Shown here: piece after piece, positions 12,585-34,043 of the stretch | Position numbering within the stretch: position 1 is the stretch's first letter | How the letters are laid out: each line of letters starts with the position of its first letter | Position numbers and translations under genes: made by a program | The notes under the pieces: generated by a model | Seen by the model: the letters and a program-made list of their open reading frames with translations, nothing else | What the model was told of the DNA's origin: nothing | Database searches by the model: none | Assembly (NCBI GenBank): GCA_025965975.1 | Contig: JAOPVX010000444.1 | Location: 1 to 37,998 of the forward strand | DNA length: 37,998 nt | Source of the DNA: Mycobacterium sp. | GTDB lineage: Bacteria; Actinomycetota; Actinomycetes; Mycobacteriales; Mycobacteriaceae | Reading direction: 5' to 3'

Positions 12585-12708
12585 CTGACTACAAATCTGA
12601 CGACAACCATGACGACAGCCGCACGCCCAACAACGCCCACACCTGCCCTTCGTGGGTCGTGTTCTGTCTGGTCACACGCTTCGCCTGGTCCTGGCAGTGT
12701 GGAGGTTG
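12585..12708 (+). repeat. Island-boundary direct repeat D1 (int arms + tRNA-Ala piece)
   Basis: About 124 bp matching 27124-27253 with few gaps. It opens with three TGACGACA-like words spaced about 11-12 bases apart, then a shared ACGCC..AC.ACGCCCAC block, and ends in GCCTGGTCCTGGCAGTGTGGAGGT. CTGGCAG followed by YGTGG and a GGGGGTC-like variable region resembles the anticodon loop onward of tRNA-Ala(GGC). Here the tRNA portion soon degenerates. It is interpreted as an attachment-site scar at the left edge of the polysaccharide island. Confidence 0.75.
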
Positions 12709-12868
12709 CCAGCGAGCTCCCGATCTCGTCGAGCGCCCCCCGTCAACGTTGTCACCGTTCGTCACAACTCGGTATGTACACGCCGATACGGACGGGGACG
12801 TCCCGGGAACATCGTTGCAGTTCAGCGGCTTTGAGGGGACCCACCGAGACTCTGCGAACCGCCGCTAT

Positions 12869-12924
12869 GCGGACTGTAAATCCGTCGGCTTACGCCTACA
12901 GTGGTTCGAATCCACTACCTGCCA
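12869..12924 (+). pseudogene. tRNA-Tyr(GTA) 3' half, no 5' half
   Basis: Clear 3' portion of a tRNA-Tyr. The anticodon arm is GCGGA-CTGTAAA-TCCGT (12869-12885; anticodon GTA), the long variable arm CGGCTTACGCCTAC is typical of bacterial tRNA-Tyr, and the T-arm is AGTGG-TTCGAAT-CCACT followed by acceptor ACCTGCC and A. The matching 5' acceptor GGCAGGT and a D-arm are not found upstream, so it cannot fold as a full tRNA. This is the expected footprint of an element that integrated by recombination at the anticodon loop of a tRNA-Tyr gene. Confidence 0.8.
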
Positions 12925-12925
12925 G

Positions 12926-13533
12926 TGCAGTTCAAGCATGGTATTAGCCCGACTAGATCTTGCGACGGCAGCGGCAATCAACGTCACCCCGACGACCAGG
13001 CGGTCGCCCGGGTCATCAAGTATGGCGGGGATTCACCGGAATTGGTGTTCAACTACCGCTCGGTTCGCAATGAGATTTGGGGACCCGCGGCGCTGAAGGC
13101 CGCACACAACTATCGGGCACGCTATCCCGTGGCCAACACCTGCCGGAATCACGGTGGACCTGACGGGTCCGAAAGTCTGAAACTCCCGGGACGCGCGCTC
13201 GTCGAGGAATTAGCAGCGGCGCCGGCATCAGCAACGGTCACGCGGCGCGCAAGCCGAGCGGGCCGATCTTCAGCCAGGCCATCATCTGCGCGGCTGTTGG
13301 CCAGCCCGTCAGCGACCGTGACGTCTGCTCGTACCCGTCGCAGAGTGGCCAGCAGACAAGCGTTTCGATCAGGTCGCTGATGCCTGCGATGACCGGCCGA
13401 CCCGGTCGTAGCCGGGCGGGTCGTCGATCACCAGGCCACCAAAACCCGCAACACGCGTAGTCCGCTACGCGGTTCGCGCGAGGACATCCGCGCTACCTTT
13501 TGACTGGCTGCATCGATCCGAGAAGGAGTTGCC
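12926..13533. other. Decayed DNA between tRNA-Tyr scar and lipoprotein gene
   Basis: No intact gene. On the minus strand a frame ending at 13238 (residues ISDLIETLVCWPLCDGYEQT, then LTGWPTAAQMMAW) has coding character for about 50 residues but no start and no recognised family; it may be the tail of a lost gene. The plus frame around 13000-13200 is likewise unrecognised. A strong AAGGAG site at 13522-13527 belongs to the next gene. Confidence 0.4.
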
Positions 13534-14259
13534 ATGCGCGGTGGGCTGCGACGGGTTCCCGACGTACGTGATCATGGCGCGCTTTACTTCGTCGGCGTTG
13601 TCGTCCTGATCAGCGCGAGCCTCGCGGTTAGCGGGTGTGGTGGCAGGACACAAACGTCGTCAGGTGGCAGCGGCACTTCCAGCAGCATTGGCACGCAGGC
13701 CAGCACATCCACTGCGTCCGGGTCCACCCAGTCCAGCAGTCGCTCTACCGAGCCAGACGATGAATTGGCCTGGGTGCCATTTGGACCCGACGATCCGGCC
13801 TATCCCACGCCCGGTTGGGATGCGTACTACTACTTCCTGGCACACGACTGTGACAAATTGTCGAACGACGTGCAAAGCAAATCCGGCCACCTCTACGAAT
13901 CGGCGGTTGCCGTTTGTTACGCGGCGGTGGACGGTCAGCAGAGTCAGTGGGACGTCGCGGCCAAGGCATTCAAGGCCCGCACCGCAGCCGACGCCATCGG
14001 CCCCGCGCCATGCGTCGACGACACCATCGCCAACATGGTGTCAGCTCTGTTGACGTGGCACGATTCCCACCCCGGCCGCCAGCCGCACCTGACGTTCCCG
14101 CAGACGGCGAATCGAAGAACGGCCTGCTCGCACGATCACAACAGCGTCCAGCCGGAACCAAGCACGACCGAGTCCGCGACGACAACAACTACGCGGTCCA
14201 CGACGACCGCGACCACGACGAGTCCCACGACACCAACGACAACCACTGGCTCTCGCTGA
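13534..14259 (+). CDS. Putative lipoprotein with Thr-rich C-terminal tail
   Basis: This 241-residue protein has a signal peptide ending in the lipobox AVSGC (Cys about 35), a Ser/Thr-rich linker (about 38-75), a ~120-residue globular part with paired Cys (HDCDKL, AVCYAAVD, APCVDD) and a C-terminal tail of about 30 Thr/Ser residues. ATG 13534 follows AAGGAG at 6 bases, the best ribosome-binding site in this block. I do not recognise the globular domain; the motif YPTPGWDAYYYFLAHDCDKL may help searches. Ser/Thr-rich flanks are typical of mannosylated mycobacterial lipoproteins. It should be surface-anchored and is the first gene inside the polysaccharide island, convergent with the next gene. 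Confidence 0.75.
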   Translation: MRGGLRRVPDVRDHGALYFVGVVVLISASLAVSGCGGRTQTSSGGSGTSSSIGTQASTSTASGSTQSSSRSTEPDDELAWVPFGPDDPAYPTPGWDAYYYFLAHDCDKLSNDVQSKSGHLYESAVAVCYAAVDGQQSQWDVAAKAFKARTAADAIGPAPCVDDTIANMVSALLTWHDSHPGRQPHLTFPQTANRRTACSHDHNSVQPEPSTTESATTTTTRSTTTATTTSPTTPTTTTGSR

Positions 14260-14266
14260 GGGGCGG

Positions 14267-15268
14267 TCAGCGAGAAAATTGCCAGAGAACCGACTTGTCG
14301 GCATCGAAAACCATCACGCGGCCGCCGCTTGGGCTCCACCCGTCGTTCAGGAGGAACAGACGGCCGCCGGACTCACCCAGCAGCCGCAGACCGGTCGTGC
14401 GATACAGCGTTTTGGGACCGACCATGAACGGGGTCGTTGCCACGTTCGGCGCATCAAAACCGAGCGGGTTTTCGCTGATCGCCATCGCCCGCGGAAGAGT
14501 AGACGGTTTCCTTTCGAATTGCTCGGCGATGCCCCGTCCGACGATTCCCGCGTATGCGCCGACCGCCCAGAACACGGCTACGGCGACGACGACACCGACG
14601 AGAAGGTTCTGCAGCACGCCCTGCCAGCGGGCGGGACCCTGCGCCGCACCGGGTTTGGTGCCGGCGCGGACGACGTGGTGGCCGTATGCGGCCAGCGCCG
14701 TGCCGGCGGCGAGCAGCAGCGGGAACACCACTGCGCTGGGCGGCCATGGCAGCTTCATGGCAGCGAGAACCACACCGACGATCGCGGCACCAAGACCGAC
14801 GTACATCGTCGTCGCACCCGCCACGCGAACTGCCCGGGAGCCGGTTGTTGGATCGATCGAGGCCGTGATTCGCCGGTGCAATTCGAGCCAGGCGATCCCC
14901 ACAACCGCGGCAACGAGCAATGGCACGAAAAGCGTGCTGATGCTGCGGAGCACATAGTCCTGAGCCGACAGGTGAAAAAGGCTCACGTCGATGCCCATCC
15001 ACTTGGACTGTGCGTTGCTGCGCGCCCAGCCGAAGTACAACATCAGCGCCGTGATCATCGTCAACGGCGTTCCCACGGCGGTGATCACCGACAACGCGGA
15101 CCGCAGAGTTGATGCCGTCGATGAGCCTTCGTCTGCGGATGTCGTTGCCGAAGTCGCGCCTTCCGGACCAGGATGCGACCGGCTCGTGACCGCGCGTGGT
15201 TTGATACCGACTCGCGGTCCCACGCCCGGCCCGCGCACCGGTCCGCCCGACGCCCTCCCAGACGGCAT
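14267..15268 (-). CDS. Multi-pass membrane protein, unknown family
   Basis: This 333-residue protein has a Ser/Pro-rich N-terminal ~55 residues, then five or so membrane segments (about 60-85, 110-128, 148-170, 178-198, 222-245), and a ~85-residue C-terminal soluble region. That region ends in a beta-rich segment (KTLYRTTGLRLLGESGGRLF, then LLNDGWSPSGGRVMVFDADK) that may lie outside the membrane. I do not recognise the family. No strong ribosome-binding site precedes ATG 15268, so the true start may be further in. Its stop is 7 bases from that of the convergent lipoprotein gene. A role in polymer secretion is possible only by location. Confidence 0.6.
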   Translation of the reverse strand: MPSGRASGGPVRGPGVGPRVGIKPRAVTSRSHPGPEGATSATTSADEGSSTASTLRSALSVITAVGTPLTMITALMLYFGWARSNAQSKWMGIDVSLFHLSAQDYVLRSISTLFVPLLVAAVVGIAWLELHRRITASIDPTTGSRAVRVAGATTMYVGLGAAIVGVVLAAMKLPWPPSAVVFPLLLAAGTALAAYGHHVVRAGTKPGAAQGPARWQGVLQNLLVGVVVAVAVFWAVGAYAGIVGRGIAEQFERKPSTLPRAMAISENPLGFDAPNVATTPFMVGPKTLYRTTGLRLLGESGGRLFLLNDGWSPSGGRVMVFDADKSVLWQFSR

Positions 15269-15386
15269 GGCTGGATGTTACTGGGCTGTCGTGGTCCACG
15301 GACCTCAATGACACGGCCCCGACAAGACGTTTGACCGACCATCCCGACTACTCGATTCTGGAGTCGAATCATCGGTCAGCAGCGAC

Positions 15387-15602
15387 GTGAGTACCGCGTC
15401 ATGGGGGATCACGTCTGCGCCGCCGTCAACGCCGGCAGCTGTCCGCACCCAGGGCGCGCTGGTGCAACCGTTGTCGGCGCCGGCGGGGGCGGGCAAGACC
15501 ACCTCCATGCGCGCCCTGCACGCTGCGGTGCACAATGGCGCCTACCACCACGTGCTGCTAGCGAACACCCGTCCGGGGATCTCCGCAGCCGCAGAGGGCT
15601 GA
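15387..15602 (+). pseudogene. MobF/TrwC-type relaxase, helicase-domain fragment
   Basis: About 60 residues in one frame match the Walker A region of the conjugative relaxase-helicase family: ALVQPLSAPAGAGKTTSMRA, followed by LHAAVHNG. In actinobacterial relaxases this sequence begins the RecD-like helicase domain. Upstream relaxase and downstream helicase motifs are missing, and the frame ends at a TGA soon after. It is a conjugative-element remnant between the membrane-protein gene and the regulator. The N-terminus of the same protein family occurs at 28529-28900. Confidence 0.7.
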
Positions 15603-15848
15603 TGCGCGCGGGCAGCGCCGGCGCGTTGTGGCCCGTTCGGACTACACGTCGATTCGACGCGTAGTCCGTGGGGCGACGGCGTAGTCGCGATGTGGCGCTT
15701 GCGAACAAGAACACGTTCTCGTCGCTGCGCGGCCCTGCGCGCGGTGGGCGATGATAGCAATGTTAGCCGCACCGGCCGCGGCTCTGACAGCCGCGCAGAC
15801 AGCGCGGCTGACCGGTCGGCAAAAAAGTTAACGGAGGGTGCTCGGGGG

Positions 15849-16538
15849 ATGTCGGCATTGGCCCAATGGGCCAAAGGGGATGGGGAGGATTCCGTCGCGG
15901 TCATCGCGAGCCGCGACGCGATTCACGCCGCGGTCGAATTGTGGTGCGCCCAAACCGAACCCCCAATCCTGCTTGCTGGCGCCTACTTCACCGCGGAACA
16001 CTTCCTGAGCGAGCAGCCGTCGGTCACCAAGCCCGGGATCGATGTGGTGATCTTCGACCCGGCGGGCGAGAGCACCGGTGTCGACTTCGTGGCCCTCGAC
16101 CGCATCCTCGAGACCGGTCATCGCGTCATCGTGTATTCACACCTGGAGACCGACGAAGTGATCCTCACCTGCCTCGAACTCGGTGCAGTCACCTACTTGA
16201 CGCAGTCCGAGCGAAAACATCACTTGATCAACGCGATCCGTGCCGCATCCACCCCTGACCCCTACGTGGGCCCGCGCATGGCGCGCGCAATGCTGATCGA
16301 CCGCAGTGTTGGCCGGCCTAATCTCGCTCCGCGAGAAAGAGAAGTACTCATCGCATGGTGTAGGACCCACAGCAAGGAACACGTGGCAGCCCAGCTGATG
16401 ATCGCGCCCGCGACAGTCCGTAGCCACCTGCAACGGATACGGGCCAAATACGCCGCTGTGGGACGACCCGCGCCGACGAAGTCCGCCCTGGTCGCGCGCG
16501 CACTGCAAGACGGCATCATCAGCGTGCACGAGGTGTAG
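15849..16538 (+). CDS. LuxR-type regulator with receiver-like N-domain
   Basis: About 229 residues. The N-terminal ~130 residues resemble a response-regulator receiver fold (VDVVIFDPAG, HRVIVYSH, GAVTYLTQSE), but the acidic pocket is reduced, so it may be phosphorylation-independent. The C-terminal LuxR/GerE helix-turn-helix is clear: LAPREREVLIAWCRTHSKEH, then VAAQLMIAPATVRSHLQRIR and AKYAAVGRPAPTKSALVARA. ATG 15849 (MSALAQ) is preferred over an upstream start at 15690, which would add a low-complexity Arg/Ser-rich stretch; GGAGG lies 13 bases upstream and GGGGG directly before. No histidine kinase is adjacent. By position it is the candidate regulator of the polysaccharide genes. Confidence 0.85.
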   Translation: MSALAQWAKGDGEDSVAVIASRDAIHAAVELWCAQTEPPILLAGAYFTAEHFLSEQPSVTKPGIDVVIFDPAGESTGVDFVALDRILETGHRVIVYSHLETDEVILTCLELGAVTYLTQSERKHHLINAIRAASTPDPYVGPRMARAMLIDRSVGRPNLAPREREVLIAWCRTHSKEHVAAQLMIAPATVRSHLQRIRAKYAAVGRPAPTKSALVARALQDGIISVHEV

Positions 16539-16677
16539 CCACCGCCACATTGGTCGTGCGCCCGGCGAATCCGCGGGCAGCGCCCGGCGTGTGGCCCTCA
16601 GGGACCACGCGATCGCGCACCCGACGGTCTCCACCAAGCCGTTGGAGTGCCGTCGCCGGTGCCGTGGACGTGCCCGT

Positions 16678-17976
16678 CTAGGAGCAGGCATGCACCGAGT
16701 CGGCGTAGCGTAGCCAGTCGGGAAGGTCCGAGACGAAAGCGTCCCTGATCGGCTGAGAGCCAGCTGCGCGCCAGTCCACCCAGTCGTTGATTTCGATCTC
16801 GAACTTCTTCCACTCAAACCAGTTGATCATCTTCAGCTGCGGGAAACGCCGGTGAGTTTCCTCGGAGAACACCTGCCGCCACCACGCCCGCTTGATCGCA
16901 AGCTCGGTCTCCCCGATGCGTGACGGGGTGAAGATCGCGGCCGTCTCCACGATCGCGACCGGCTTGTGATGCTCAACTCCGTAGCTCTGGTAGAAGTTCG
17001 GCACTCCGGCGTCATCGCCGGCGGTCCCGTTGTAGCTGCCGGTCAGCATGTCGATGAACTTGTGTAGCTCCGTGATGTCGTTGGTTCCCCACGGATAGTG
17101 ATTGCCCCAGTGGTAGAGCGATACCCCGACCCAGTCCACGTATTCGTCGCCGGGATAGTACGGTGCGTAGGAGTCGTCGTGCATCGTCAGTTGGCCGTCT
17201 CCGTTGGTGTCGAGCTCCCGAAAGCTCTCGCTGTCCGGTGGTGCCGCGAACTTCCCTCCAGCATAAGGATATCCGCCGCCGTAGTTCGGCGCCCACATCA
17301 TTGCCGACCCCGGCGCAATTTGGTGGACCGCGGTGGCCACCGCGCGGAAGACAGCCTTGTAATGATCCGGCTGCTGCCCCCAGGCATACCAGGAGCCGTT
17401 CATCTCGTGCGCGAACCTGACAACGACCGGGACGCCAAAGTTGTTGAGATCAAGCAGATCATAGGCCAAGGTCTTGATGACGTCGGGGCTCACCGCGTCC
17501 AGCCCGGCATGCGGCTCGAGCGTCAGCAACAGCACGCCGCCGTCTTCCTTGACCTGGCGCGCAGCGCTTTCGGTGTGCTGCCAGGTCGGCCGGTCATACG
17601 GGATGTCCTGGAACTCGACGGCCACCGCCGGTGACTGCCCCAAGTTCGTATGATGTTGGGCCAGAGTTTCCGATTTCCAATCCAAGTTGACGCCGAAGAG
17701 CACCCCGTCTTTCGGCACGATCGCGGCCGCCGAGGTGACTTTGCATCGACCGAGCAGTAGCTGCAGCGGTTTGATTCGAGGTTCGACGACGAGCACCAGA
17801 ACGACGGCGAGCGTCATCGCGATGATGGGGAAGATCACGTTCTGGCCCCGGTGGTGCCGTCGGGGCGGATGAGCAGCGAACGGCTGATCGCCGACGGCGT
17901 CGCGCAGATCTGTCTCGGTGCCGGGCGGATCCGCGAGAGATGTGGCGGCGCCGGAGTCGTGCATATCATGTGCCAT
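16678..17976 (-). CDS. GH26-like glycoside hydrolase, membrane-anchored
   Basis: A 432-residue protein with a cytoplasmic N-terminus, one membrane segment (about 47-64) and an extracytoplasmic TIM-barrel of the GH26 (mannanase/lichenase-type) family. The predicted acid/base Glu is E191 in RFAHEMNGSWYAWG and the nucleophile is E344 in AIVETAA; both are present. DTNGDGQLTMHD (256-267) has EF-hand spacing and probably binds calcium. ATG 17976 has AAGAGG 8 bases upstream. It is divergent from, and its start codon overlaps that of, a second GH26-like gene. It probably cuts or remodels the polymer made by the nearby GT2. Substrate is unknown: GH26 covers beta-mannan and mixed-linkage glucan. Confidence 0.88.
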   Translation of the reverse strand: MAHDMHDSGAATSLADPPGTETDLRDAVGDQPFAAHPPRRHHRGQNVIFPIIAMTLAVVLVLVVEPRIKPLQLLLGRCKVTSAAAIVPKDGVLFGVNLDWKSETLAQHHTNLGQSPAVAVEFQDIPYDRPTWQHTESAARQVKEDGGVLLLTLEPHAGLDAVSPDVIKTLAYDLLDLNNFGVPVVVRFAHEMNGSWYAWGQQPDHYKAVFRAVATAVHQIAPGSAMMWAPNYGGGYPYAGGKFAAPPDSESFRELDTNGDGQLTMHDDSYAPYYPGDEYVDWVGVSLYHWGNHYPWGTNDITELHKFIDMLTGSYNGTAGDDAGVPNFYQSYGVEHHKPVAIVETAAIFTPSRIGETELAIKRAWWRQVFSEETHRRFPQLKMINWFEWKKFEIEINDWVDWRAAGSQPIRDAFVSDLPDWLRYADSVHACS

Positions 17977-19006
17977 GGGTTGGGCCTCTTGTCGAGTCGT
18001 TGCCCCTGGGGGATCCCAGGCACGCGCTCAGACGCTCCGAGCGCGGGCGGTACATCGCGTGGTGCTCGTCGCGGCGCTCGTAGCAGCGAGTTTCACCGGC
18101 TGCGCTCCGGGACGCCCGGAATCGTCGAAAGCTGCTGCGCCGCACCACATCGATTGGGGCGTGTTCCTGCCCGACGACGGTGCCGCCTCGAGCAATCTGT
18201 GGCAGGTCCAGACAATGGCTGGGTCCCCACCGCATTACGTGATGCGCTTCGCCGGCATCGACGAGCGCACCCCAATCCCCGAGCTCAATGAAATCGCCGC
18301 TGCCGGTGCGCATCCCATCCTGACGCTGGAGCCGTGGCAGCCGGGAGCGGGGGTGGAGCAACCCGACTATGCGTTGTCGCACGTCACCGCGGGCAACTTC
18401 GACGAACAACTGGACACCTGGGCACGCAATCTCGCAACGTGGGGCCAGCCCGTGCTGCTGCGCTTCGGGCATGAAATGAACAGTAAGCATTACCCCTGGT
18501 CCGTCGGGGTGAACGGCAACTCCGCCGAGGACTACATCGCGGCGTGGAAACACGCGCGTAGCAGGTTCGACTTGGCCGGCGCCCACAACGTATCGTTCAT
18601 GTGGTGCCCGGACGCGCCCTACGAAGGCTCGGCGGACGTGTCGGAGGCATTCCCGGGGCCAGACAGTGTCGACGTCCTTTGTCTCGACGGTTACAACTGG
18701 GGCGATGGTGACGGCCATTCGTGGAAGAGCCCGTCGGACATCTTCACCCGAGGACTGAACCAACTGCGCGCGCTGGACAGCACACACCCGATCGTCATCG
18801 CCGAGACGGCGAGCGCGGAAGGGCCGCGTTCCGGCCAAGACAAGGCCGCCTGGATCACACAGCTGTTCGACTTCCTGGCCCGTCAGGACCGCGTATCGGC
18901 CGTGGTCTGGTTTCAGATGGACAAGGAGCGCGACTGGCGATTCAACTCGACGAACCAGTCGCAGAACGCGTTCAAGGACGCGATCGCCTCGCGGCCTGCA
19001 CCGTGA
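17975..19006 (+). CDS. GH26-like glycoside hydrolase, probable lipoprotein
   Basis: About 343 residues. The N-terminal signal ends in FTGC (Cys43), a passable lipobox. The barrel carries LLRFGHEMNSKHYPW (acid/base E167) and IVIAETAS (nucleophile E277), so the active site looks complete. It is only moderately similar to the neighbouring GH26-like protein and lacks the EF-hand insert. The start is uncertain: ATG 17975 lies inside a CCATGG shared with the divergent gene's start and has no good ribosome-binding site; a start nearer RAVHRVVLVAAL (about 18050) would give a normal short signal peptide. Convergent with the GT2 gene 57 bases away. Confidence 0.85.
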   Translation: MGWASCRVVAPGGSQARAQTLRARAVHRVVLVAALVAASFTGCAPGRPESSKAAAPHHIDWGVFLPDDGAASSNLWQVQTMAGSPPHYVMRFAGIDERTPIPELNEIAAAGAHPILTLEPWQPGAGVEQPDYALSHVTAGNFDEQLDTWARNLATWGQPVLLRFGHEMNSKHYPWSVGVNGNSAEDYIAAWKHARSRFDLAGAHNVSFMWCPDAPYEGSADVSEAFPGPDSVDVLCLDGYNWGDGDGHSWKSPSDIFTRGLNQLRALDSTHPIVIAETASAEGPRSGQDKAAWITQLFDFLARQDRVSAVVWFQMDKERDWRFNSTNQSQNAFKDAIASRPAP

Positions 19007-19063
19007 TCCTCGGATTCCCATGAGGTCGTTCACGTCTCGCGGCACGGGTCTGGTCCGGGCCGG

Positions 19064-21370
19064 TCACCCCGCCCGCTGGGCAGGGTAGGCGGCTTCGGCG
19101 TGGTCGACGTGTAACCGGGTTATGTTGGACAGCGCCATCATCTCGTGAGCCATCGCGAAGCAACCGCGGGACGCGCTAAAGATGCGCAGATCACCACCGT
19201 GGGAGCGGACCACCCGCAGCAGGTCCACCAGCACCGCCACCCCTGATGGAGTCAGCGTCCGCACGCCCGAGACATCGATCAGCACGATCGGCGAGGGGCC
19301 GGTCAACGCAACGGCAACCTGCGAGCGCAGGTCTAGGGCCGCGGCGGCGTCGAAACGGGCTGCAGCGCGCAGCTGCATCCCCGCCAGCGCCTGGAACGGC
19401 CCCGGCCGGCCGGCCGCGACTAGCTCGGGAGCCGTGCTGGGGCCGCGCTGCTGGGCCACCGCAGACGCCCCCACCGATGAATCCGCGGACTGGATGTCAG
19501 CGACGACCTGATGAACTTCCTCGACAACGGTGGTGGGAAAAGGACTTTGGATGCGATCACCCGGGCCGCGATAGCGGGCGGCACGCACCATCGCGGTCAG
19601 CAGTGCCAAGTCGGCGAGGACCCACAGCAGCGTGACGATGGTGGCGAACTCCGGTCGCCGACCGGCAAGGGTCTGCACGGCTCCGTAGCTGCCCGCCACC
19701 GTGAGCACACAGATGGCAACGAGCTGCGGAACCACGTGTCTCATCCCGGATCCCGTCGCCTGCTTGGTCTTCTGGGTGACCGCGAAGGACAGCGTCTTGC
19801 CCAGGAAGGCCGCGGATGCACCGGCTACGGTGGCCTTGATCCAAGTGGGGAACAGCGCGAAGGACATCTGCTGACCGCGCCACAGCCCCTTGGCGCCATC
19901 GCCGGCGACCAAGTAGAGCCCCTGGCAGCACACGAAGAACGGCATGAAGTACACGAAGAAGGCGATCGAATCACAGCGTATCGGGAACCGGCCCGTGACC
20001 AGGAAGACGGTCGGCGCGATCACATAGATGACGGCGGCGAAGCCGTTCAAATAACTGGTCATCGTCGACACGTACATCAGGCGTTGACCGAACGTTAACC
20101 CTCGCAACAGCATTGGGTTGTCGGAGAAGAACACCTGCATCGTGCCGGTCGCCCACCGCTGTCGTTGCGAGAGCATGGTGCGCACATCCTCCGGCGCCAG
20201 GCCGTGGACGAGCACCTCGTGGTGGTAGACGCTGGTCCAGCCCAGCGCGTGCAGATGCATCGCGGTGGCCATGTCCTCGGTGACCGACGCGGTGTTGATC
20301 GGGTCGATCGCCAAGGCCTGGTTGGTGCGCGCGACATCGGCGCGCTCGACGATGTGGCCGAGTGCCTCGGCGAGATCGGTGGGGACGGCCTCCGTGCGGT
20401 TCAGGCTGCTCACGAAGGTTCGCAGGTCGAAGGTGGCGTCGGCCAGCACGTCGCCGCGGCGCACCCTGGCCTCGGCGTCGGTCAATGCCAGGACGGCACG
20501 GTGGCCGATCACCTTGGCGTTCGCATCTACCACCGCCGAGGTGTCGACGATCGCCTGAACGCGTCGTCTACCGTCCCGCAGCGCCTTGCGGACTCGTTCG
20601 GCAGCGGTCCGGGTGAACATCGTCAGTCCGAGCGCCATCAGCGCTTCGCGGCGCAGGACCGCGTTCGATCCGCAGAAGAACGCGCCGCCCCAGCCGTCCT
20701 TACCTTGCTGGATGGGGCCATAGAACAGCTCGGCCTGGCTGCCGAGTGGATCCGAGCGCGGCACGTTCCAGAACTGCTGCGGCGTTTGGACGAACGCGAC
20801 CTCGGGATCGTCGAAGTAACCGAGCACGCGGTCCAGGAAGTGCGGGTCGGGAACCTGATCGGCATCGAGGACTGCGATGAACTCCCCGGACGTGTGGAAG
20901 AGGGCGTTGTTGACGTTTCCCGCTTTCGCGAATCGTGGACGCCCGTCCCAGTCCGGCCCCCGCACGATGTAGCCGACTCCGATCCGCCGCGCGGCTTCGG
21001 CGAATTCCGCCCGATCGCCGTCATCGAGAATCCACGTCTGGTGGGGGTATCTGATGTCACGGGCCGCCACGGCGGTCGTCAGTACGATGTCCAGTGGTTC
21101 GTTGTAGGTCGCGATGAATACGTCAACAGAGCGCCCTTTGGGCGCCGGCGGCGGATCGCCACGGCGCCGGGCATTCCACATGGTGATCCCGTACACGACC
21201 GATTCGCTCAGGCTGTAGGTCTCCGCGAGCACCAACGGCACCGCAATCCACCACGCATCCCAGGCGATCGTTGAGGTCCATCGCCACTGCATATAGGTGA
21301 CGCCGAAGGCCACCACAAATAACGTCAACAAACGCACGACGAACAGCCGGGCATTGCTCACCGTCGCCAC
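19064..21370 (-). CDS. Cellulose-synthase-like GT2 with C-terminal STAS domain
   Basis: A 768-residue membrane glycosyltransferase of the processive BcsA type. Two N-terminal membrane segments are followed by the catalytic motifs DDG (116-118), DAD (169-171), TED (364-366) and QRQRW (402-406), then about five more membrane segments (435-600). A ~100-residue insertion sits between DAD and TED (about 250-350). The usual c-di-GMP-binding PilZ domain (RxxxR..DxSxxG) is absent. Residues ~670-765 instead form a STAS (anti-sigma-factor-antagonist) domain: IVLIDVSGVRTLTPSGVAVL, then LVDLLRVVRSHGGDLRIF, with Ser709 at the site phosphorylated in SpoIIAA-like proteins. It should polymerise and export a beta-glucan-like chain from UDP-sugar. 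Divergent from galU. Confidence 0.92.
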   Translation of the reverse strand: MATVSNARLFVVRLLTLFVVAFGVTYMQWRWTSTIAWDAWWIAVPLVLAETYSLSESVVYGITMWNARRRGDPPPAPKGRSVDVFIATYNEPLDIVLTTAVAARDIRYPHQTWILDDGDRAEFAEAARRIGVGYIVRGPDWDGRPRFAKAGNVNNALFHTSGEFIAVLDADQVPDPHFLDRVLGYFDDPEVAFVQTPQQFWNVPRSDPLGSQAELFYGPIQQGKDGWGGAFFCGSNAVLRREALMALGLTMFTRTAAERVRKALRDGRRRVQAIVDTSAVVDANAKVIGHRAVLALTDAEARVRRGDVLADATFDLRTFVSSLNRTEAVPTDLAEALGHIVERADVARTNQALAIDPINTASVTEDMATAMHLHALGWTSVYHHEVLVHGLAPEDVRTMLSQRQRWATGTMQVFFSDNPMLLRGLTFGQRLMYVSTMTSYLNGFAAVIYVIAPTVFLVTGRFPIRCDSIAFFVYFMPFFVCCQGLYLVAGDGAKGLWRGQQMSFALFPTWIKATVAGASAAFLGKTLSFAVTQKTKQATGSGMRHVVPQLVAICVLTVAGSYGAVQTLAGRRPEFATIVTLLWVLADLALLTAMVRAARYRGPGDRIQSPFPTTVVEEVHQVVADIQSADSSVGASAVAQQRGPSTAPELVAAGRPGPFQALAGMQLRAAARFDAAAALDLRSQVAVALTGPSPIVLIDVSGVRTLTPSGVAVLVDLLRVVRSHGGDLRIFSASRGCFAMAHEMMALSNITRLHVDHAEAAYPAQRAG

Positions 21371-22007
21371 CCCCTATATCGCCACTGGTATATTTCGGCA
21401 CCTGGTGAACTTGCGCGCGGCTGAATAAGCGTTGTGGATGTCAATCGGTGCCTAACCCTGTTCATGACTGGAATTGTCTGCCGGGCTATTCGTTGTCGCG
21501 TCCATGTCTGCATTTCGCGTGCTCCAATAAACGATCCAGACAACCAAACAACCGAACCGTCCGACCATTTGGTGTCCGAGCCGGAATTTCCCGCGCGAAC
21601 ACGCGGGTTCCCACCACAGCTGCCCAGCGGGACGCTTACAGCGAACGCTCAGTGACGGGCGCTACGCTCAGCGACGGGCGCTAGGCCGTGCTTGGCTTGA
21701 TTTTTGCGCGGACGAAACGTTCTAGCAATATTTGGCAACTCCCCGTTACGTATTGCAAAACGCGTGAAACAAAGGACCCAGCGGCCCCGATGCCGTCCGA
21801 CACAGTTATACAACGCCGCTGTTCTCTTGGCAGCGCCGCCAGTCGGTTGTGATTGGTGACGTTGATCACGCCAGATATCCTGTAGGACGAACGTCCGACA
21901 GGCCCGTGCAATACGTTCAGCGTAGTGCCCACGCAAACAACACTCGCAGCAGAAACATTTAACTTCGCATTCGAGCAATGACGATATTCGTGCGCTAAAG
22001 TGCCGCC
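21371..22007. promoter_or_regulatory. Divergent control region between GT2 and galU
   Basis: A 637-base gene-free region. It holds an inverted repeat CCCGCG-N6-CGCGGG (21590-21607) and a tandem 19-bp repeat, CGCTCAGTGACGGGCGCTA, immediately repeated with one change (21646-21683). The part nearer galU is relatively AT-rich. Promoters for both genes should lie here; repeats of this type are candidate operator sites. No riboswitch or sRNA was recognised. Confidence 0.5.
21646..21683 (+). repeat. Tandem 19-bp repeat in GT2/galU control region
   Basis: Two adjacent copies of CGCTCAGYGACGGGCGCTA differing at one base. It is located about 280 bases from the GT2 start and 325 from galU. Possible regulator-binding sites or a local duplication. 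Confidence 0.75.
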
Positions 22008-22955
22008 ATGACCAAGCCGCAAATGCTCATGCCCCGGACAGCGATCGTGCCCGCCGCTGGTCTAGGCACACGGTTCCTGCCGGCGACCAAGACGGTGCCC
22101 AAAGAGCTCCTGCCGGTTGTGGACACTCCTGGGATCGAACTCGTCGCCGCCGAGGCGGCCGACGCAGGCGCCGAGCGCCTGGTGATCGTGACCTCACCGG
22201 GCAAGGACGGCGTCGTGGCCCACTTCGTGGAGGACCTGGTGCTCGAGGGCGTGCTGGAGGCCCGTGGCAAGCACTCGATGCTGCAGAAAGTCAGGCGGGC
22301 ACCGGCTCTCATCAAAGTCGAATCGGTGGTGCAGGACCGACCACTCGGGCTCGGCCACGCCGTGTCGTGCGTCGAGCGGGTGCTTTCCGCAGACGAGGAC
22401 GCGGTCGCGGTGCTCCTGCCCGACGACCTGGTGCTCCCAACGGGGGTGCTAGAGATCATGTCCCGGGTGCGGGCCGAACGCGGCGGCACCGTGCTGTGCG
22501 CCATCGAGGTACCGCCTGAAGAGATCAGCGCTTACGGCGTCTTCGATGTCGACCCAGCGCCCGACGTCGTCGATCGCAACGTGTTGCGGGTCAAGGGCAT
22601 GGTGGAGAAACCCACAGCGGCCGACGCCCCGTCGCGGTACGCCGCCGCTGGCCGCTACCTGCTGGACCGCGCCGTCTTCGACGCCCTGCGGCGCACGGCC
22701 CGCGGCGCGGGCGGCGAGATCCAGCTCACCGACGCGATTGCGCTTCTCATCGAGGAGGGTCACCCGGTGCACGTCGTGGTGCACCGTGGGTCCCGGCACG
22801 ACCTGGGAAACCCGGGCGGGTACCTCAAGGCGGCAGTCGACTTCGCCCTCGATCGCGAGGACTACGGACCGGACTTACGCCGCTGGCTGCTCAGCCGTTT
22901 GGGCGTGACCGACCACGATTCCGCTGCCTGCGCCGTGAGCACGCTGTCCGACTGA
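22008..22955 (+). CDS. galU: UTP-glucose-1-phosphate uridylyltransferase
   Basis: A 315-residue GalU-type nucleotidyltransferase making UDP-glucose from glucose-1-P and UTP. The nucleotide-binding loop AAGLGTRFLPATKTVPKELL lies at residues ~16-35; PLGLGHAV, LLPDDLVL, VEKP and GGEIQLTDAI follow in the usual order and the length is normal. ATG 22008 has only a weak upstream AAAGTG. It is divergent from the GT2 gene and followed at 59 bases by a lipoprotein gene. Mycobacteria normally have a housekeeping galU elsewhere, so this is probably a dedicated second copy feeding polymer synthesis. Confidence 0.95.
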   Translation: MTKPQMLMPRTAIVPAAGLGTRFLPATKTVPKELLPVVDTPGIELVAAEAADAGAERLVIVTSPGKDGVVAHFVEDLVLEGVLEARGKHSMLQKVRRAPALIKVESVVQDRPLGLGHAVSCVERVLSADEDAVAVLLPDDLVLPTGVLEIMSRVRAERGGTVLCAIEVPPEEISAYGVFDVDPAPDVVDRNVLRVKGMVEKPTAADAPSRYAAAGRYLLDRAVFDALRRTARGAGGEIQLTDAIALLIEEGHPVHVVVHRGSRHDLGNPGGYLKAAVDFALDREDYGPDLRRWLLSRLGVTDHDSAACAVSTLSD

Positions 22956-23014
22956 TCCGCCTGCACACGGACAATCATCGAATTCGGCCACCGAACGCGA
23001 CCGGGATCAGCGCG

Positions 23015-24316
23015 ATGCACGCCACACCAGCCCCCGCACAACGAGTTTGGCGCCCGCGACGGGCCGAGCCCAACCGGAAAACGACACTCGTGACCGTCGC
23101 CGTCCTGTTCTTCGTCAGTGCATGGCTGCTGGTTGCGCTCGGCGGATGCGCCACCTCTCAGACGCGGCCGATGCACGCCACCATGCTGAACGCCGATCTC
23201 AGCGGGTCCGGTCCCGGCAAGCTCGACGACGCCGTCACTCTGCCCGACGTCGATCCGGCTCTGCGTTCGGCGTCGTCATTGGCGGCGCGGATCACCTACA
23301 GATCGAGCTCCGGAATCGACGACAGCCCAACCCAAGTCACTGCCGCGGTGTTCGTTCCACTCGGGGCACCGCCACCACAGGGGTGGCCGATCGTGGCCCT
23401 CGGGCACCCCGCCACCGGCATCCAGCACGACTGTGCACCATCACAATCCCCGACATTGCTAGGTTCGGAAGGTGCGGTTCTGTCGCTGCTGCAGGCCGGT
23501 TACGTAGTAACCATCAGCGACTACCAGGGCCTGGGACTGGGCACCACCTACCACCCCTTCCTGGACTCCAGCACCGTCGGCGTCAACCTCATCGATTCGG
23601 TCTTCGCCGCCCGCCGACTCGTGACGACGACCTCCATCCATTGGATCGCCCTGGGTCTGGGCCAGGGCGGCGAAGCCGCCTGGGCGGCCAATGAATTGAG
23701 CGACAACGCCGGACGCGGACTCGATCTGCTCGGCGCGGTCAGTCTGTCACCGGCCGCCGACCTCACCGGGCTCGGCGACGCCGCGGTCACCGGCACGCTG
23801 ACCACCGAGCAGAAGCTGGCGTTGCAGTGGTACCTCGCCGCTCTGAAGAACGAGTACCCGAACGTCAACCTCGACGACTACAGGCGCGGCGTCGTCGGCG
23901 ACAAATGGGACGTGCTCTCCGCTTGCCAGCGGTCCGCGGATCCGGAACGCGCCAGCGTCGCCGAGCAGATCCCCGCCGACGATCTGCGACCGAGTAGTCT
24001 CCCAGCAGCGCACCGTCTGCGCGGATTCCTGCAGAAGACCAACCTGCCGCAAGGCCCCACCGCCGCCCCCATGCTGGTGATCTACGGCGACGACGATCCG
24101 CTGATCCCCGCGGCGTGGACAGAACGAGCGCTGAACCGAGCCTGCAAGATGGGCGACACCATCGCTATCGAGACGGCGCCGGACACCGGGTACGCCGACC
24201 CCGACATGCCCGCGGCCCTTGGCTGGATGAAGGATCTTGCGGCCGGCAACGCGGCCCGCGACGACTGCCCAACCTTCGGTGGTCAACGAAATGAGTCTTC
24301 GACGGCGTCGCCATGA
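23015..24316 (+). CDS. Secretory-lipase-fold lipoprotein lacking catalytic Ser/His
   Basis: A 433-residue alpha/beta-hydrolase of the secretory-lipase type. The N-terminal signal (about 23-45) ends in the lipobox ALGGC. The fold landmarks are present (WPIVALGHPATG, GYVVTISDYQGLG, MLVIYGDDDPLIP with the acid Asp). The nucleophile elbow, however, reads GLGQG (214-218) where family members have G-x-S-x-G, so Ser is replaced by Gly216. The usual GH motif near the C-terminus reads DTGYADP (about 394), so the catalytic His also appears missing. It is probably a binding or structural pseudo-enzyme on the cell surface, perhaps a polymer-binding partner of the downstream esterase. ATG 23015 has GGGATCAG upstream, a weak site. 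Confidence 0.85.
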   Translation: MHATPAPAQRVWRPRRAEPNRKTTLVTVAVLFFVSAWLLVALGGCATSQTRPMHATMLNADLSGSGPGKLDDAVTLPDVDPALRSASSLAARITYRSSSGIDDSPTQVTAAVFVPLGAPPPQGWPIVALGHPATGIQHDCAPSQSPTLLGSEGAVLSLLQAGYVVTISDYQGLGLGTTYHPFLDSSTVGVNLIDSVFAARRLVTTTSIHWIALGLGQGGEAAWAANELSDNAGRGLDLLGAVSLSPAADLTGLGDAAVTGTLTTEQKLALQWYLAALKNEYPNVNLDDYRRGVVGDKWDVLSACQRSADPERASVAEQIPADDLRPSSLPAAHRLRGFLQKTNLPQGPTAAPMLVIYGDDDPLIPAAWTERALNRACKMGDTIAIETAPDTGYADPDMPAALGWMKDLAAGNAARDDCPTFGGQRNESSTASP

Positions 24317-24338
24317 AACTACGAGTGCGGGTACCGCG

Positions 24339-25697
24339 ATGCCCATAACCCACGGCTGGATACCGCTGTCGGCACAGGTGCTCGCGACGGCGGCGGTGTT
24401 GCTCGCAATCGGCCGGCGCTCACGGCGCTGGGTGCTGGTGTCAATACCAGCGGCACTGCTAACCGGAGCCGCCCTAGCCGAAGCCGTCCACTGGTACGTC
24501 GCCGATCAGGGACTGGCCGACGATCCGGCGCCGGGCGCCCTGTGGCTGTGGATCGCGGCGACCGGCCTGGCCGCCGCGACGGTGGCACTCGGTTGGCGCG
24601 GAACTGCCTGGTGGCGCCGCGTCGTGTCCGTCCTCGCCGTGCCACTGTGCCTGCTGTGTGCTGCATTGACGCTCAACGCGTGGGTCGGCTATCTGCCGAC
24701 CGTGAGCGCGGCGTGGGATCGCGTGACCGGCGCGTCGCTGCCGGGGCAAACCGATCGCGCCGCCGCCATGGGGGAGCAGCACCATGGCGCGGCGCCGAAC
24801 TGGAACTCCATCGTGAAAGTGTCCATCCCCGCTGAGTCGTCGGGATTCGATCACCGCGACGAGCTGCTCCTACTGCCACCCGCGTGGTATGCGAGCACAC
24901 CCCCGCCCCGGCTGCCGGTCGTGATGATGATTGGCGGCGAATTCGGCCAACCCTCCGACTGGCTCTACGCCGGCGGTGCTCAGCTGACGATCGACGAATT
25001 CGCCGCGACGCACGGCGGAAACGCGCCGGTGCTGATCTTCCCGGACTCCAGCGGAGAGTTCAGCAACGACACCGAGTGCGTCAACGGCACCCGCGGCAAC
25101 GCAGCGGACCATCTCACCAAAGATGTTGTGCCCTACGTGATTGCAAACTTCGGTGTCAGCGCGGACCCGGCCAACTGGGGGGTCGTCGGCTGGTCCTCGG
25201 GAGGCACCTGTGCGCTGACGCTGGCCGTGACCCATCCCGAGCTGTTCGGGTCCTTCGTCGACATCGATGGCCAGCTCGGCCCCAACGCCGGCAACAAGGC
25301 GCAGACGATCGCACGTCTCTTCGGCGGCGATGCCGTCGCCTGGGCCGCGTTCGATCCCCGGACCGTCGTCGCCGGACACGGCCCTTACCGCGGCATGGCG
25401 GCGTGGTTCTCCGTCTCCACCGAAACCCCCACGGTGTATCGCCCGCCGACCGGCACCGAACCGGCGCCACCACGGGGTCTCGCAGGAACCATACCGTCGG
25501 AGGACCACGCCGCCATCGCCAACCAGCTGTGTCAGATACTCAGTGGGTACGGCATCGAGTGTGCAGTGGTAGCCAATCCGAGCGGACACGACTTCGCCTC
25601 AGCGGCCTCGGCATTCGCCGCCTCGCTGCCGTGGCTGGCCGGAAGACTGGGAACAACCGGAGTGCCGAAGATTGCGTTGCCTGGTGCCAAGAACTAG
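24339..25697 (+). CDS. Four-TM esterase of the antigen-85/esterase-D fold
   Basis: About 452 residues. Four membrane helices occupy residues ~8-130, followed by an extracytoplasmic alpha/beta-hydrolase domain related to esterase D and mycolyltransferases. The nucleophile is in VVGWSSGGTCA (Ser about 285), an Asp-rich segment follows (FVDIDGQLG), and the His is in NPSGHDFAS (about 415), so the triad appears complete. ATG 24339 is 22 bases after the lipoprotein stop. An in-frame ATG at 24291, preceded by GGTGG, would overlap that gene by 26 bases and add a basic N-terminus; either is plausible. It is likely co-transcribed with the pseudo-lipase. It may acylate or deacylate the polymer or a lipid carrier; the substrate is not evident. 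Confidence 0.85.
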   Translation: MPITHGWIPLSAQVLATAAVLLAIGRRSRRWVLVSIPAALLTGAALAEAVHWYVADQGLADDPAPGALWLWIAATGLAAATVALGWRGTAWWRRVVSVLAVPLCLLCAALTLNAWVGYLPTVSAAWDRVTGASLPGQTDRAAAMGEQHHGAAPNWNSIVKVSIPAESSGFDHRDELLLLPPAWYASTPPPRLPVVMMIGGEFGQPSDWLYAGGAQLTIDEFAATHGGNAPVLIFPDSSGEFSNDTECVNGTRGNAADHLTKDVVPYVIANFGVSADPANWGVVGWSSGGTCALTLAVTHPELFGSFVDIDGQLGPNAGNKAQTIARLFGGDAVAWAAFDPRTVVAGHGPYRGMAAWFSVSTETPTVYRPPTGTEPAPPRGLAGTIPSEDHAAIANQLCQILSGYGIECAVVANPSGHDFASAASAFAASLPWLAGRLGTTGVPKIALPGAKN

Positions 25698-25745
25698 CCC
25701 TCATCTCCCGGTTAGCCGCGGAGACAACGACATCCGGGAGAGCCA

Positions 25746-26954
25746 ATGACGAGGACCCGAACCTGGCTCGCCGTCGCCGGCGCGGTGATTACCGTTGCGG
25801 TCGTCGTGGGTTGCTGGCAAAGGGCGCTGAACGCCAGCACCGCGCCCAGCCATGGCGGATGGTCTGAAAGTGCTTGGCAAAGCACAGATCTCACCGCCGC
25901 GGCGGCTGCACCCGCAGCCGTCCTCAGCGGTCTGACCGGGTTTGTGTTCGAAACGCAACGCACCCAGCATGTGATCTATTACAGCGCACCCGACAATCAT
26001 GTTCGTGAGCTGTGGTGGGACGCCAACGGCCGACACGCCAGCGATCTCACGGCGGCCACGGGTGCACCCGCGGCCAGCGGAGGCACGCTTGCGGGATTCG
26101 TGTTCGACGCGCAACGCAGCGAGCATGTCCTTTCGGTCGGCGCCGACCGCCATGTCTATGAAATGTACTGGGACAAAGGCTGGCACCTCACCGACCTCAC
26201 TGCCGCCACCAGAGCCCCCTTCGCGGCGGGGGTCGCGCTCATTGCATATGTGTCGCAGACGCAGGGCACCGAGCACGTCTTCTACCTTGGCTACGATCAC
26301 CACGTCTACGAGATGTGGTGGGACAACACCTGGCACCTCAATGATCTCACCGCCGCCACCGGCGCCCCGTCCGCGGGCGCCGACGCGCTCGCTGGGTACA
26401 TATTTGAGTCCGAGGGGACCGAGCACGTGATCTACGTCGGGCCCGGGGGACACATCTTCGAGCTGTGGTGGACCCGCCAAGGGTGGCATTTCAGCGATCT
26501 GACCGCCGCCACAGGCTCGGCGGCCTTCGGCGGCGGCACCCTGGATGGCTACATGTTCTCCTCCCAGGGGACACAACACGTGATCTACAAGGGCGTCGCG
26601 GGCCACGTCCACGAGTTGTGGTCGGACGGCTACGGTTGGCATGCCAACGATCTCACTGCCGCCACCGGTGCCCCCAACGCAGCCGGTGGCACCATCGCCG
26701 CTTACGCGTTCGAGTCGCAAGCCACAGAACACGTGATCTACGCCGGCGTCGACCGGCACCTGTACGAGTTGTGGTGGGACAACCGGTGGCACGTCGGCGA
26801 CCTGACCGCTGCGACTGGAGCCCCGGCCGCCGCGGGCGCTACCCTCGCCGGATACGTCTCCGAGGCGGAGGGCACCGAGCACGTGGTCTACGGCAGTAGC
26901 ATCGACGCGCACATCCACGAGCTGTGGTGGGGACCCCGAGTTGGGCACAACTAA
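25746..26954 (+). CDS. Seven-repeat beta-propeller lectin-like lipoprotein
   Basis: A 402-residue protein. The signal peptide ends in VVVGC (Cys about 23), so probably a lipoprotein. The rest is seven repeats of ~50 residues built on the pattern HvYELWWD..WH..DLTAATGAP, then a GTEHVIY-type strand; DLTAA occurs seven times and E[LM][WY][WS] seven times. The first repeat supplies the DLTAA strand and the last ends at ELWWGP, so a closed seven-bladed propeller is expected. The pattern matches PLL/fucose-lectin-type propellers, where the W/H-rich blade interfaces bind sugars. ATG 25746 follows GGGAGAG. As the last gene of the island it may tether the exported polysaccharide to the envelope. Confidence 0.9.
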   Translation: MTRTRTWLAVAGAVITVAVVVGCWQRALNASTAPSHGGWSESAWQSTDLTAAAAAPAAVLSGLTGFVFETQRTQHVIYYSAPDNHVRELWWDANGRHASDLTAATGAPAASGGTLAGFVFDAQRSEHVLSVGADRHVYEMYWDKGWHLTDLTAATRAPFAAGVALIAYVSQTQGTEHVFYLGYDHHVYEMWWDNTWHLNDLTAATGAPSAGADALAGYIFESEGTEHVIYVGPGGHIFELWWTRQGWHFSDLTAATGSAAFGGGTLDGYMFSSQGTQHVIYKGVAGHVHELWSDGYGWHANDLTAATGAPNAAGGTIAAYAFESQATEHVIYAGVDRHLYELWWDNRWHVGDLTAATGAPAAAGATLAGYVSEAEGTEHVVYGSSIDAHIHELWWGPRVGHN

Positions 26955-27123
26955 GGTTTGAAGTCTCCTTAGGTGCGAGTAGACGCCAGCCTCCTCGTAG
27001 TCCAGGCCAATTAGCCGCCACAGGTGATCTGATCGACTGCAGGCGCCGCGACGCCCAGTCGCCACTCAAGGTTGGCGAAGATGCGCGGATCCACTGGGCG
27101 GGTATGGGGGTTTATGGCGCTGG

Positions 27124-27253
27124 ATTGACGACAAATCTGACGACAACGCTGACGACAGTTGCACGCCGAACTACGCCCACCACAGCGCTCCGCGCTTGGT
27201 GAACCGCCCGTTCAGACGCTCTGCCTGGTCCTGGCAGCGTGGGGGTCAGGGGT
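27124..27253 (+). repeat. Island-boundary direct repeat D2 (int arms + tRNA-Ala piece)
   Basis: Partner of 12585-12708 in the same orientation. The three arm words TTGACGACA, CTGACGACA and CTGACGACA are better preserved here. The tRNA-like end reads CTGGCAG-CGTGG-GGGTC-AGGGGT (27231-27253), i.e. anticodon loop (GGC), stem, variable loop and start of the T-arm of tRNA-Ala, breaking off where TTCGAGT should follow. It marks the right edge of the 14.7-kb polysaccharide island. Confidence 0.75.
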
Positions 27254-28528: not shown

Positions 28529-28900
28529 GTGTTGACGATCTCGAAGCTCAAGCGGTGGTCGATCAACTACTACATCGACACCGCCTCCACTGCCGAGCGG
28601 GCCGCCACGAACCTGGCGCGCGACGGCGGCGGGTTGGGTGAGTACTACTCCGAGTGCGAGACCCGCACCCCCGTGTGGCTGTTGGCCGGGGACACTCACA
28701 CCGCCGCCCGGTTGGTCGGGCTCTCCGACGTGCAGCGCACCGGCGGTACCGCGGATGCGAGCGTGGTGGCGCGCTGGCTCGACGACGGGGTCGCGCCGGA
28801 TGGTGCGCGGGGGCGCGCATTCGGCGCGCGCGATGTGCACGGGTTCGTCTGACATTCTGCGCACCCAAGAGCGTGTCCCTGGTGCGCGCGCTGAAAGCCG
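28529..28900 (+). pseudogene. MobF/TrwC relaxase N-terminal fragment, frameshifted
   Basis: It starts GTG-TTG and reads MLTISKLKRWSINYYIDTAS, the standard start of actinobacterial TrwC-type relaxases, including the catalytic tyrosine pair. It continues with GGGLGEYYSE, TRTPVWLLAGDTHTAARLVG and GRAFGARDVHGF. A frameshift near 28850 gives a stop, while the next frame continues with LTFCAPKSVSLVRALKAG. The match ends at about 28900, exactly where the tRNA-Val-like repeat V2 begins. The His triad and helicase are gone. Remnant of a conjugative element. Confidence 0.88.
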
Positions 28901-29052: not shown

Positions 29053-29191
29053 CGACGAATCTCTGCTGCTCAAGCGCTTATTTAACGCCGTTGTCAGAGC
29101 CGCTGGACGTTCTTGTCATTCACCATCCAGGAGCCTTGGTCGGCAACACGCCGGGCGGGTGATCGGGCTGAGGGCAGGGCGCGCGGCATGA

Positions 29192-33956: not shown

Positions 33957-34043
33957 CTTGTTAACAGGAATAGGAGCATCAACTAGCTGCGAATTCGGAG
34001 CGTTGAGGAGGGACGGCTAGAGACGATTTCCACTGGTCGGCGT

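Follow-up and report, generated by a model that had tools for sequence, protein, structure and literature searches.

A polysaccharide locus in a probable array of integrase-less segments separated by tRNA-derived units in a Mycobacterium contig

A polysaccharide interval bounded by two repeats

The stretch of DNA analysed here, hereafter the window, is a contig of 38 kb (37,998 nucleotides, JAOPVX010000444.1) from a Mycobacterium sp. whose draft genome (the source genome, G000) amounts to 7.4 Mb in 449 contigs. Between positions 12585 and 27253, a block of polysaccharide genes is enclosed by two repeats that end in parts of tRNA genes. We consider it probable that this interval belongs, as a single cargo segment, to an array of integrase-less segments resembling cis-mobilizable elements (CIMEs), separated by attR-type (right attachment) sites and built by accretion and decay, and that it holds a synthase-dependent polysaccharide locus.

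The two repeats (12586-12706 and 27126-27246) share the same orientation and align over 121 bp without gaps at 77.7% identity, whereas the next-best match to these 121 bases anywhere in the window reaches only 44.6%. This difference, together with the tRNA scan and its shuffles (see below), rules out chance or a misreading of the repeats. A pair of co-oriented repeats with tRNA-derived ends had been recognized in a sequence-only reading of this DNA and is confirmed here, down to the end point of the right copy at 27253. That reading had also taken the two as the specific pair of a single island. This did not hold, since the window contains 11 units of five families (D3, D4, D5, D6, and T), all found on the + strand by profile searches, and a private pair is ruled out by the occurrence of the same families elsewhere in the window and in the genome.

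Both repeats are D4 units on the + strand. The left one (D4a, 12586..12706, arms 12586-12687) ends in a weak, 16-nt piece of the tRNA-Ala(GGC) anticodon arm with a score of 27, to be compared with a median of 20, a 95% limit of 24, and a maximum of 54 for 300 random window places, a draw in which the units themselves were included. The right one (D4b, 27126..27253, arms 27126-27227) starts about 170 bp past the last gene of the polysaccharide block and carries a 23-nt tRNA-Ala(GGC) piece (27231-27253). A third unit lies within the interval at its left edge and belongs to family T, with a tRNA-Tyr 3' part. The anatomy of a CIME is thus found here, with cargo between putative recombination sites of the same type (D4a and D4b, in the same orientation and both derived from tRNA-Ala(GGC), D4a weakly so), and with no recombination or transfer module found in the interior (12.9-27.1 kb). 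The earlier placement of the block at a tRNA gene was not supported, as Rfam and ARAGORN revealed no intact tRNA gene in the window. When plasmids were searched with the left repeat, the only match was one of 56 bases to a Tsukamurella plasmid, and it fell in the Tyr part.

Anatomy of the arm-plus-tRNA units

Each family has its own arm sequence, joined at a nearly fixed offset to the 3' part of a tRNA gene. In comparisons with the tRNA genes of the source genome, the homology was found to begin at tRNA position 26-32 in D6, D3, D4, and T, and at position 43-52 in D5. The tRNA is Val-CAC in D6 (elsewhere Phe-GAA), Pro-GGG in D3, Ala-GGC in D4 (elsewhere Arg-ACG), Tyr in T, and Ala in D5. This arrangement of arms and tRNA part, expected of an attachment site, was present in 33 of 37 aligned units, the four with no clear core being the last D3 unit of the window (D3c), the D3 units on contigs C60 and C430, and the T unit on C267. 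Scanning the window with the tRNAs of the genome, blind to the units, yielded nine matches scoring at least 30, all on the + strand and all at units; the - strand gave none, and two shuffled sequences gave none and one, respectively.

Beside the two D4 repeats, the units of the window are, from left to right, D6 at 323..439 (arms 323-419, tRNA-Val(CAC) piece 417-439); D5a at 1231..1374 (arms 1231-1347, T-arm and acceptor end of tRNA-Ala(GGC) at 1346-1374); two D3 units at 1800..1919 (tRNA-Pro(GGG) piece 1904-1919) and 4563..4697 (degenerate tRNA-Pro piece 4670-4697); D5 at 5821..5961 (degenerate tRNA-Ala 3' end 5931-5961); T at 12721..12922 (arms 12721-12868, tRNA-Tyr 3' part 12868-12922); D6 at 28911..29053 (tRNA-Val(CAC) 3' part 29006-29053); D5 at 32048..32188 (tRNA-Ala(GGC) 3' end 32162-32188); and D3c at 33980..34098, whose tRNA-Pro core is unrecognizable (score 17). 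All run on the + strand, and the number of genes between neighbouring units ranges from 0 to 10.

Several features of the intact tRNA genes were noted by eye. A motif like GCAGNTCAGAGG..TTTT trails many of them (L227-L276), and a similar stretch occurs within the D5 and T arms, ahead of the tRNA core. A TGACGACA motif, as in D4 arms, lies downstream of the tRNA-Arg(ACG) gene at G000:C185:52925-52997, and may mark the opposite end of a D4 element. The sole tRNA-Tyr gene found in the genome (G000:C317:21-103) is atypical in its anticodon loop and at its 3' end.

Integrase linkage and phage parallels

Outside the window, D4 and D5 sequences were found next to integrase genes. Contig C431 of the source genome carries an intact tRNA-Ala(GGC) gene, behind which lie the GTTACGTCG and CGTAACA motifs seen in D5 arms and then an integrase gene split over two frames. 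In G032 (contig C239), a D4 unit continues into the 3' part of a tRNA-Ala with its CCA end, and a split integrase frame starts 66 bp further on, while G305 combines a tRNA-Ala gene, an integrase fragment, and a D5 unit in a stretch of about 6.3 kb. Together with G035 (contig C43), these are the linked cases for D5 and D4, and all of them involve fragments or split genes. An integrase fragment also adjoins an intact tRNA-Val(CAC) gene on C107. The tRNA 3' part, the arm anatomy, and, for D4 and D5, an integrase after the core are the reasons for reading the units as attachment sites: D4 and D5 units look like attR-type sites of tyrosine integrases, and the D3, D6, and T units would be sites of the same type, as suggested by their anatomy. 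In the window, the only integrase sequence found is a C-terminal fragment of a tyrosine integrase (PF00589) at 1472..1774 on the - strand; PF00589 matches occur at 38 places in the source genome.

Phage sequences display comparable ends. The 3' parts of tRNA-Tyr in the records of phages Dori and Sbash resemble the T core, and tRNA-Ala 3' ends occur in phage Soul22 and in Gordonia phage records; in all of these, the sequence is either a phage attachment site (attP) or a tRNA gene. Mycobacteriophage Ms6 is described as integrating in the T-loop of tRNA-Ala genes through a 26-base core (PMC1762012). D5a contains the 26-nt core of the Ms6-derived vector pBU (tRNA-AlaU) given in that paper, from which the natural Ms6 core is one base off. 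D5 cores likewise begin in the T arm, the comparison with Ms6 covering the core, and no phage structural genes were noticed in the window.

Other recombinase-related observations concern the genome at large. Tyrosine recombinase matches are clustered on C119 (five) and C51 (three) of the source genome. Two near-identical tRNA-Leu(TAA) genes (G000:C138:101-175 and C16:5830-5904) each have an integrase match within about 2 kb on the same contig. At G032:C239 (L178), two small genes stand directly before the D4 arms and resemble a putative BrnT/BrnA toxin-antitoxin pair.

Recurrence of the units and alternative origins of the array

Profile models of D5 and D3 were searched in 396 genomes of the genus and the D4 model in 61, while D6 and T were covered by 33 retrieved sequence records and BLAST searches; few candidates were scored per genome in the large searches, and the counts are thus lower bounds. 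D5 was found in 26 of the 396 genomes and D3 in 25, mostly as single copies, whereas the source genome has 9-10 D5 copies (two of the 10 being weak and partial) and 8 D3 copies. D4 was found in nine of the 61 genomes, with 7 copies in the source genome. D5 and D3 occurred together in 10 of the 396 genomes, versus 1.64 expected (Fisher's test, 4e-7, or 2.5e-6 without the source genome, genome kinship being ignored). A BLAST search of the joined units against their own genome gave matches on 21 other contigs, of which four (C107, C317, C431, and C43) match via intact tRNA genes, one (C261) via a partial tRNA-Ala end, and 16 carry arm units, at a lower density than in the window.

Mixed rows are not restricted to the window. 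They were found in G394 on contig C3 (D3, D3, D6, D3, D4), in G287 on C73 (D6, D5, and D3 within 600 bp), in G208 (D4, D3), in G121 (D3, D5, T), and on contigs C339 and C60 of the source genome. Units stand back to back without cargo in three of these settings: D4a and T in the window, D6, D5, and D3 in G287, and D4 and D3 in G208. Twenty proteins, from 50 genes in or beside the rows of G394, G121, C339, and C60, were scanned and belong to metabolic, regulatory, or repeat-protein families, apart from two transposases and one protein without a match.

These data can be set against a plain graveyard, in which many independent prophages, satellites, and plasmids decayed on the spot and left the units behind, and the intervening genes are ordinary chromosomal or plasmid DNA that never formed cassettes. 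The integrase and relaxase fragments of the window, the integrase genes of C431 and G032 that are split between frames, the degenerate cores, unit copies that are often only 65-80% identical, and the ordinary single-element arrangement of G305 are all consistent with such an origin. Yet none of the 20 scanned row proteins belongs to a phage or conjugation family, and unit orientation is consistent in 14 of 15 family choices (hand tally, p 5e-4), the exception being C142 of the source genome. We regard a graveyard of this kind as a possible but unlikely explanation. The view that the units are solo insertions into a conserved gene order is disfavoured as well, no relative of G394 among those listed having the neighbouring segments side by side, a weak comparison with four candidates scored per genome.

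At the other extreme, integrases acting in trans might collect and reshuffle segments at the tRNA-like cores in an integron-like manner, the array offering landing sites of several specificities and thereby sparing the real tRNA genes. The multiplicity of units in the source genome (up to 10 D5, 8 D3, and 7 D4 copies, compared with mostly single ones elsewhere), the many places with PF00589 matches, and the units without cargo would fit this view, as would C115, a contig with an intact tRNA-Pro(GGG) gene but no D3 unit or integrase among the matches listed. However, the window holds only an integrase fragment, several cores are broken, no circle or reshuffled copy was seen, and stacking and decay account for much of the pattern, making this explanation rather improbable. 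The same low expectation applies to its broader form, a multi-specific, integron-like array maintained by some mycobacteria, in which metabolic and surface-polymer modules would be gathered at a distance from tRNA genes, in segments closed by sites that are composed of arms and a tRNA part and could be used in trans by integrases of several specificities.

Genes and distribution of the polysaccharide block

The block begins with a lipoprotein-like gene (+ strand) and a multi-pass membrane protein gene (- strand) at 13534..15268, which belong to no Pfam family and lack a match near the block in the relatives retrieved. They are followed by a LuxR/GerE-type regulator (15690..16538, +), 35-39% identical to the copies in three relatives; a glycoside hydrolase family 26 (GH26) enzyme with an N-terminal hydrophobic anchor, as judged by eye (GH26a, 16678..17976, -); a lipoprotein-like GH26 hydrolase (GH26b, 17918..19006, +); and a cellulose-synthase-like glycosyltransferase family 2 (GT2) protein with a C-terminal STAS domain (19064..21370, -). 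Downstream are a GalU-like nucleotidyltransferase (22008..22955, +), 79-81% identical to GT2-adjacent copies in three relatives; a secretory-lipase-type protein (23015-24316, +); a membrane-anchored "Putative esterase" protein (24237-25697, +); and a propeller protein with a fold like that of the PLL/PHL/CV39L lectins (25746..26954, +). The gene content first proposed (regulator, two GH26, GT2-STAS, galU, membrane protein, esterase, and propeller lectin) was largely borne out. Lipobox-like cysteines were seen by eye in the translations of four proteins (those starting at 13534, 23015, and 25746, and GH26b).

A GT2 match at E <= 1e-100 was found in 35 of the 396 genomes. A full-length orthologue (66-72% identity) is restricted to five, namely the source genome and four others, which include Mycolicibacterium sp. 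CBMA 226 and Mycobacterium sp. ACS4331; the remaining 30 have a shorter match alone (50-62% identity), and one full-length carrier also has a short one. In three of the four other carriers, the LuxR, GH26a, GH26b, GT2, galU, and propeller genes lie side by side, and CBMA 226 is the only one of the relatives retrieved with lipase and esterase genes by the block. ACS4331 has GT2, GH26b, GH26a, and a propeller-like piece at a contig end, with a tRNA-Gly gene about 7.6 kb from GT2. Relatives of GT2 in plasmids were all below 60% identity.

The five carriers represent five different genomic contexts. In 10 pairwise comparisons, similarity was confined to the block, with two exceptions, a stretch of 201 bp at 70% identity (G397 and G173) and an Anbu-transglutaminase gene pair common to G397 and the window. 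Because the full-length GT2 is this rare and similarity stays inside the block across contexts, the block behaves as a unit that travels, by means not visible in the relatives: neither units nor an integrase were found around it in the four other carriers (15-40 kb each), and tRNA-like scores of 30-32 in G257 and G397 were no better than the single shuffle match of 33. A fixed core locus is ruled out by the occurrence in five of 396 genomes and by the five contexts.

The idea of a block present or absent as a whole was thus borne out, with neither scattered genes nor fixed core DNA observed, save for a close galU missing in ACS4331. The idea that block and repeat pair form one specific mobile island was not, since the unit families recur, the blocks of the relatives lack units in the stretches retrieved, the window has only an integrase fragment, and no empty site was seen.

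Predicted function of the polysaccharide genes

The sequence-only reading knew of no described mycobacterial system with this gene set, a statement that proved too strong, as other Actinobacteria commonly carry the GT2/GH26 core. Among 33 GT2 loci taken from titled genome records, of which 32 are actinobacterial, a GH26 gene was found at 29 and a STAS domain at 30. The latter is fused to GT2 in the mycobacterial and Pseudoclavibacter proteins and occurs as a separate frame after GT2 elsewhere, as in Oerskovia. A serine at the candidate phosphorylation site, corresponding to the site phosphorylated in STAS antagonists, is kept in 28 of the 30. In the GT2 alignment, from which two rows in a wrong frame (L060 and L079) were disregarded, residues D, DxD, TED, and QxxRW are visible, which we take to be the synthase motifs. 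The nearest solved structures are BcsA proteins; unlike in BcsA, no PilZ match was found in GT2, and a STAS domain is present instead. No bcsB-like gene was noticed among the scanned genes.

For the propeller protein, a sequence search of the PDB gave no match. Its predicted model, built on four sequences (mean predicted local distance difference test score 77, predicted template modelling [TM] score 0.76), matched Photorhabdus PLL/PHL lectin chains with a Foldseek probability of 1.00 and TM scores by query of 0.59-0.66, at 13-18% identity. Its match to the CV39L family (NF052350) reached 43.8 bits, far below the curated cut-off of 350, though its fold is similar.

Our best guess for the polymer is a beta-glucan, possibly of mixed linkage and trimmed by GH26. 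Judging from the domains, the BcsA-like GT2 would polymerize sugar from a nucleotide sugar supplied through the GalU-like enzyme and pass the polymer through the membrane, where the two anchored GH26 enzymes might trim it, the esterase-type proteins edit its acyl groups, and the propeller lipoprotein bind it at the surface. The STAS domain may gate the synthase via a protein partner rather than via cyclic di-GMP (c-di-GMP). As first suggested, the genes may have a joint role in biofilm or exopolysaccharide formation. No description of a STAS-linked synthase was found among the matches listed for the open-access literature searched.

Proposed accretion and decay of the array

Under the reading that we favour, each of the five arm families probably served as the site for a different kind of tyrosine integrase. 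Elements with integrases of several types would have been added site-specifically beside existing tRNA-like cores, and their integrases and transfer genes subsequently lost, leaving as remnants the fragment at 1472-1774 and a MobF relaxase fragment of 107 amino acids (28529..28852, +), which is 71.7% identical to mycobacterial plasmid relaxases and has no Pfam match. The remaining CIME-like segments would be mobile only if an integrase acted from elsewhere. A complete integrative and conjugative element (ICE), its actinomycete counterpart (AICE), or a prophage would combine a complete integrase with transfer or virion genes, of which the window holds fragments only.

Several observations weigh against this reading. 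Plain tandem accretion depends on a matching core and leaves the occurrence of different tRNA specificities in one row unexplained. The D3, D6, and T units were not found to be directly followed by an integrase, two of the 11 window units (D4a and D3c) have a weak or unrecognizable core, and no empty site or circular form of the interval was seen. The draft state of the source genome (449 contigs, 93.4% complete, 4.6% contamination) also has to be considered. As regards the locus itself, ACS4331 has only a 29% galU match beside its GT2 and GH26 genes, and GT2 scores below the TIGR03030 cellulose-synthase cut-off (339.8 versus 699.1 bits). The weak matches of GH26a are to mannanases and also to endoglucanase H, presumably a lichenase, and the beta-glucan assignment is accordingly tentative.

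Further cargo and neighbouring genes were noted in the window. Between two D3 units (2196..4569, +) lie genes for an Anbu-type proteasome-like protein, a member of the N-formylglutamate amidohydrolase family, and a transglutaminase-like protein; in G397, the Anbu and transglutaminase genes are again neighbours, at a distance of about 12 kb from the polysaccharide block of that genome. A gene with a DprA domain begins at the tRNA piece of D4b, and a zinc-ribbon gene resembles, by eye, a truncated ComF (both within 27239-28272, weak Pfam matches only). At 29195-31078, an RpfB-like protein (DUF348, G5, transglycosylase) follows in frame a truncated DUF772 transposase, and the frame represents either a fused gene or a gene with its start inside the frame.

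Relation to known systems and significance

The nearest published case is that of the Dehalococcoides ssrA islands. These form rows of direct repeats, each made of a tRNA-like 3' end and an adjacent conserved motif, carry metabolic cargo, and were proposed to arise by accretion, and 15 islands without an integration module were considered possible CIMEs (PMC3146451). Rows of such repeats, integrase-less segments, and metabolic cargo are shared with the window. In Dehalococcoides, however, there is one target (ssrA), the recombinases are serine recombinases, and the repeats lie within 100 kb downstream of ssrA (PMC3146451), whereas the 38-kb contig of the window, in which no intact tRNA was found, intermingles units that represent five arm families and four tRNAs (Ala, Pro, Val, and Tyr). 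The mixture of tRNA types in one array is a variation on the accreted CIME rows known for single targets; no description of mixed arrays was found among the matches listed for the open-access literature searched. AICEs are actinobacterial elements at tRNA 3' ends for which both tandem integration and the use of tRNA-gene remnants as sites have been reported; they carry int, rep, and tra genes (PMC3218068), none of which was found complete in the window.

The synthase core of GT2 is shared with bacterial cellulose and mixed-linkage glucan synthases, namely BcsA and also RiGT2 and BgsA (PMC10374906). It differs from BcsA in its C-terminal STAS domain in place of PilZ, its two GH26 partners, and the lack of a noticed bcsB-like gene. 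The propeller is similar to PLL, PHL, BP39L, and CV39L in its predicted fold and through the weak CV39L match, its sugar binding being putative; it differs from these lectins in its low identity, its lipoprotein-like nature, and its location in a polysaccharide locus.

The set of GT2, STAS, and GH26, widespread in Actinobacteria, points to a polymer system that is perhaps controlled by a STAS partner rather than by c-di-GMP. If the proposed origin of the array is correct, accretion at tRNA sites can build arrays of mixed specificity that carry useful gene blocks without integrases, which would provide a route for spreading modules such as the polysaccharide locus among mycobacteria.

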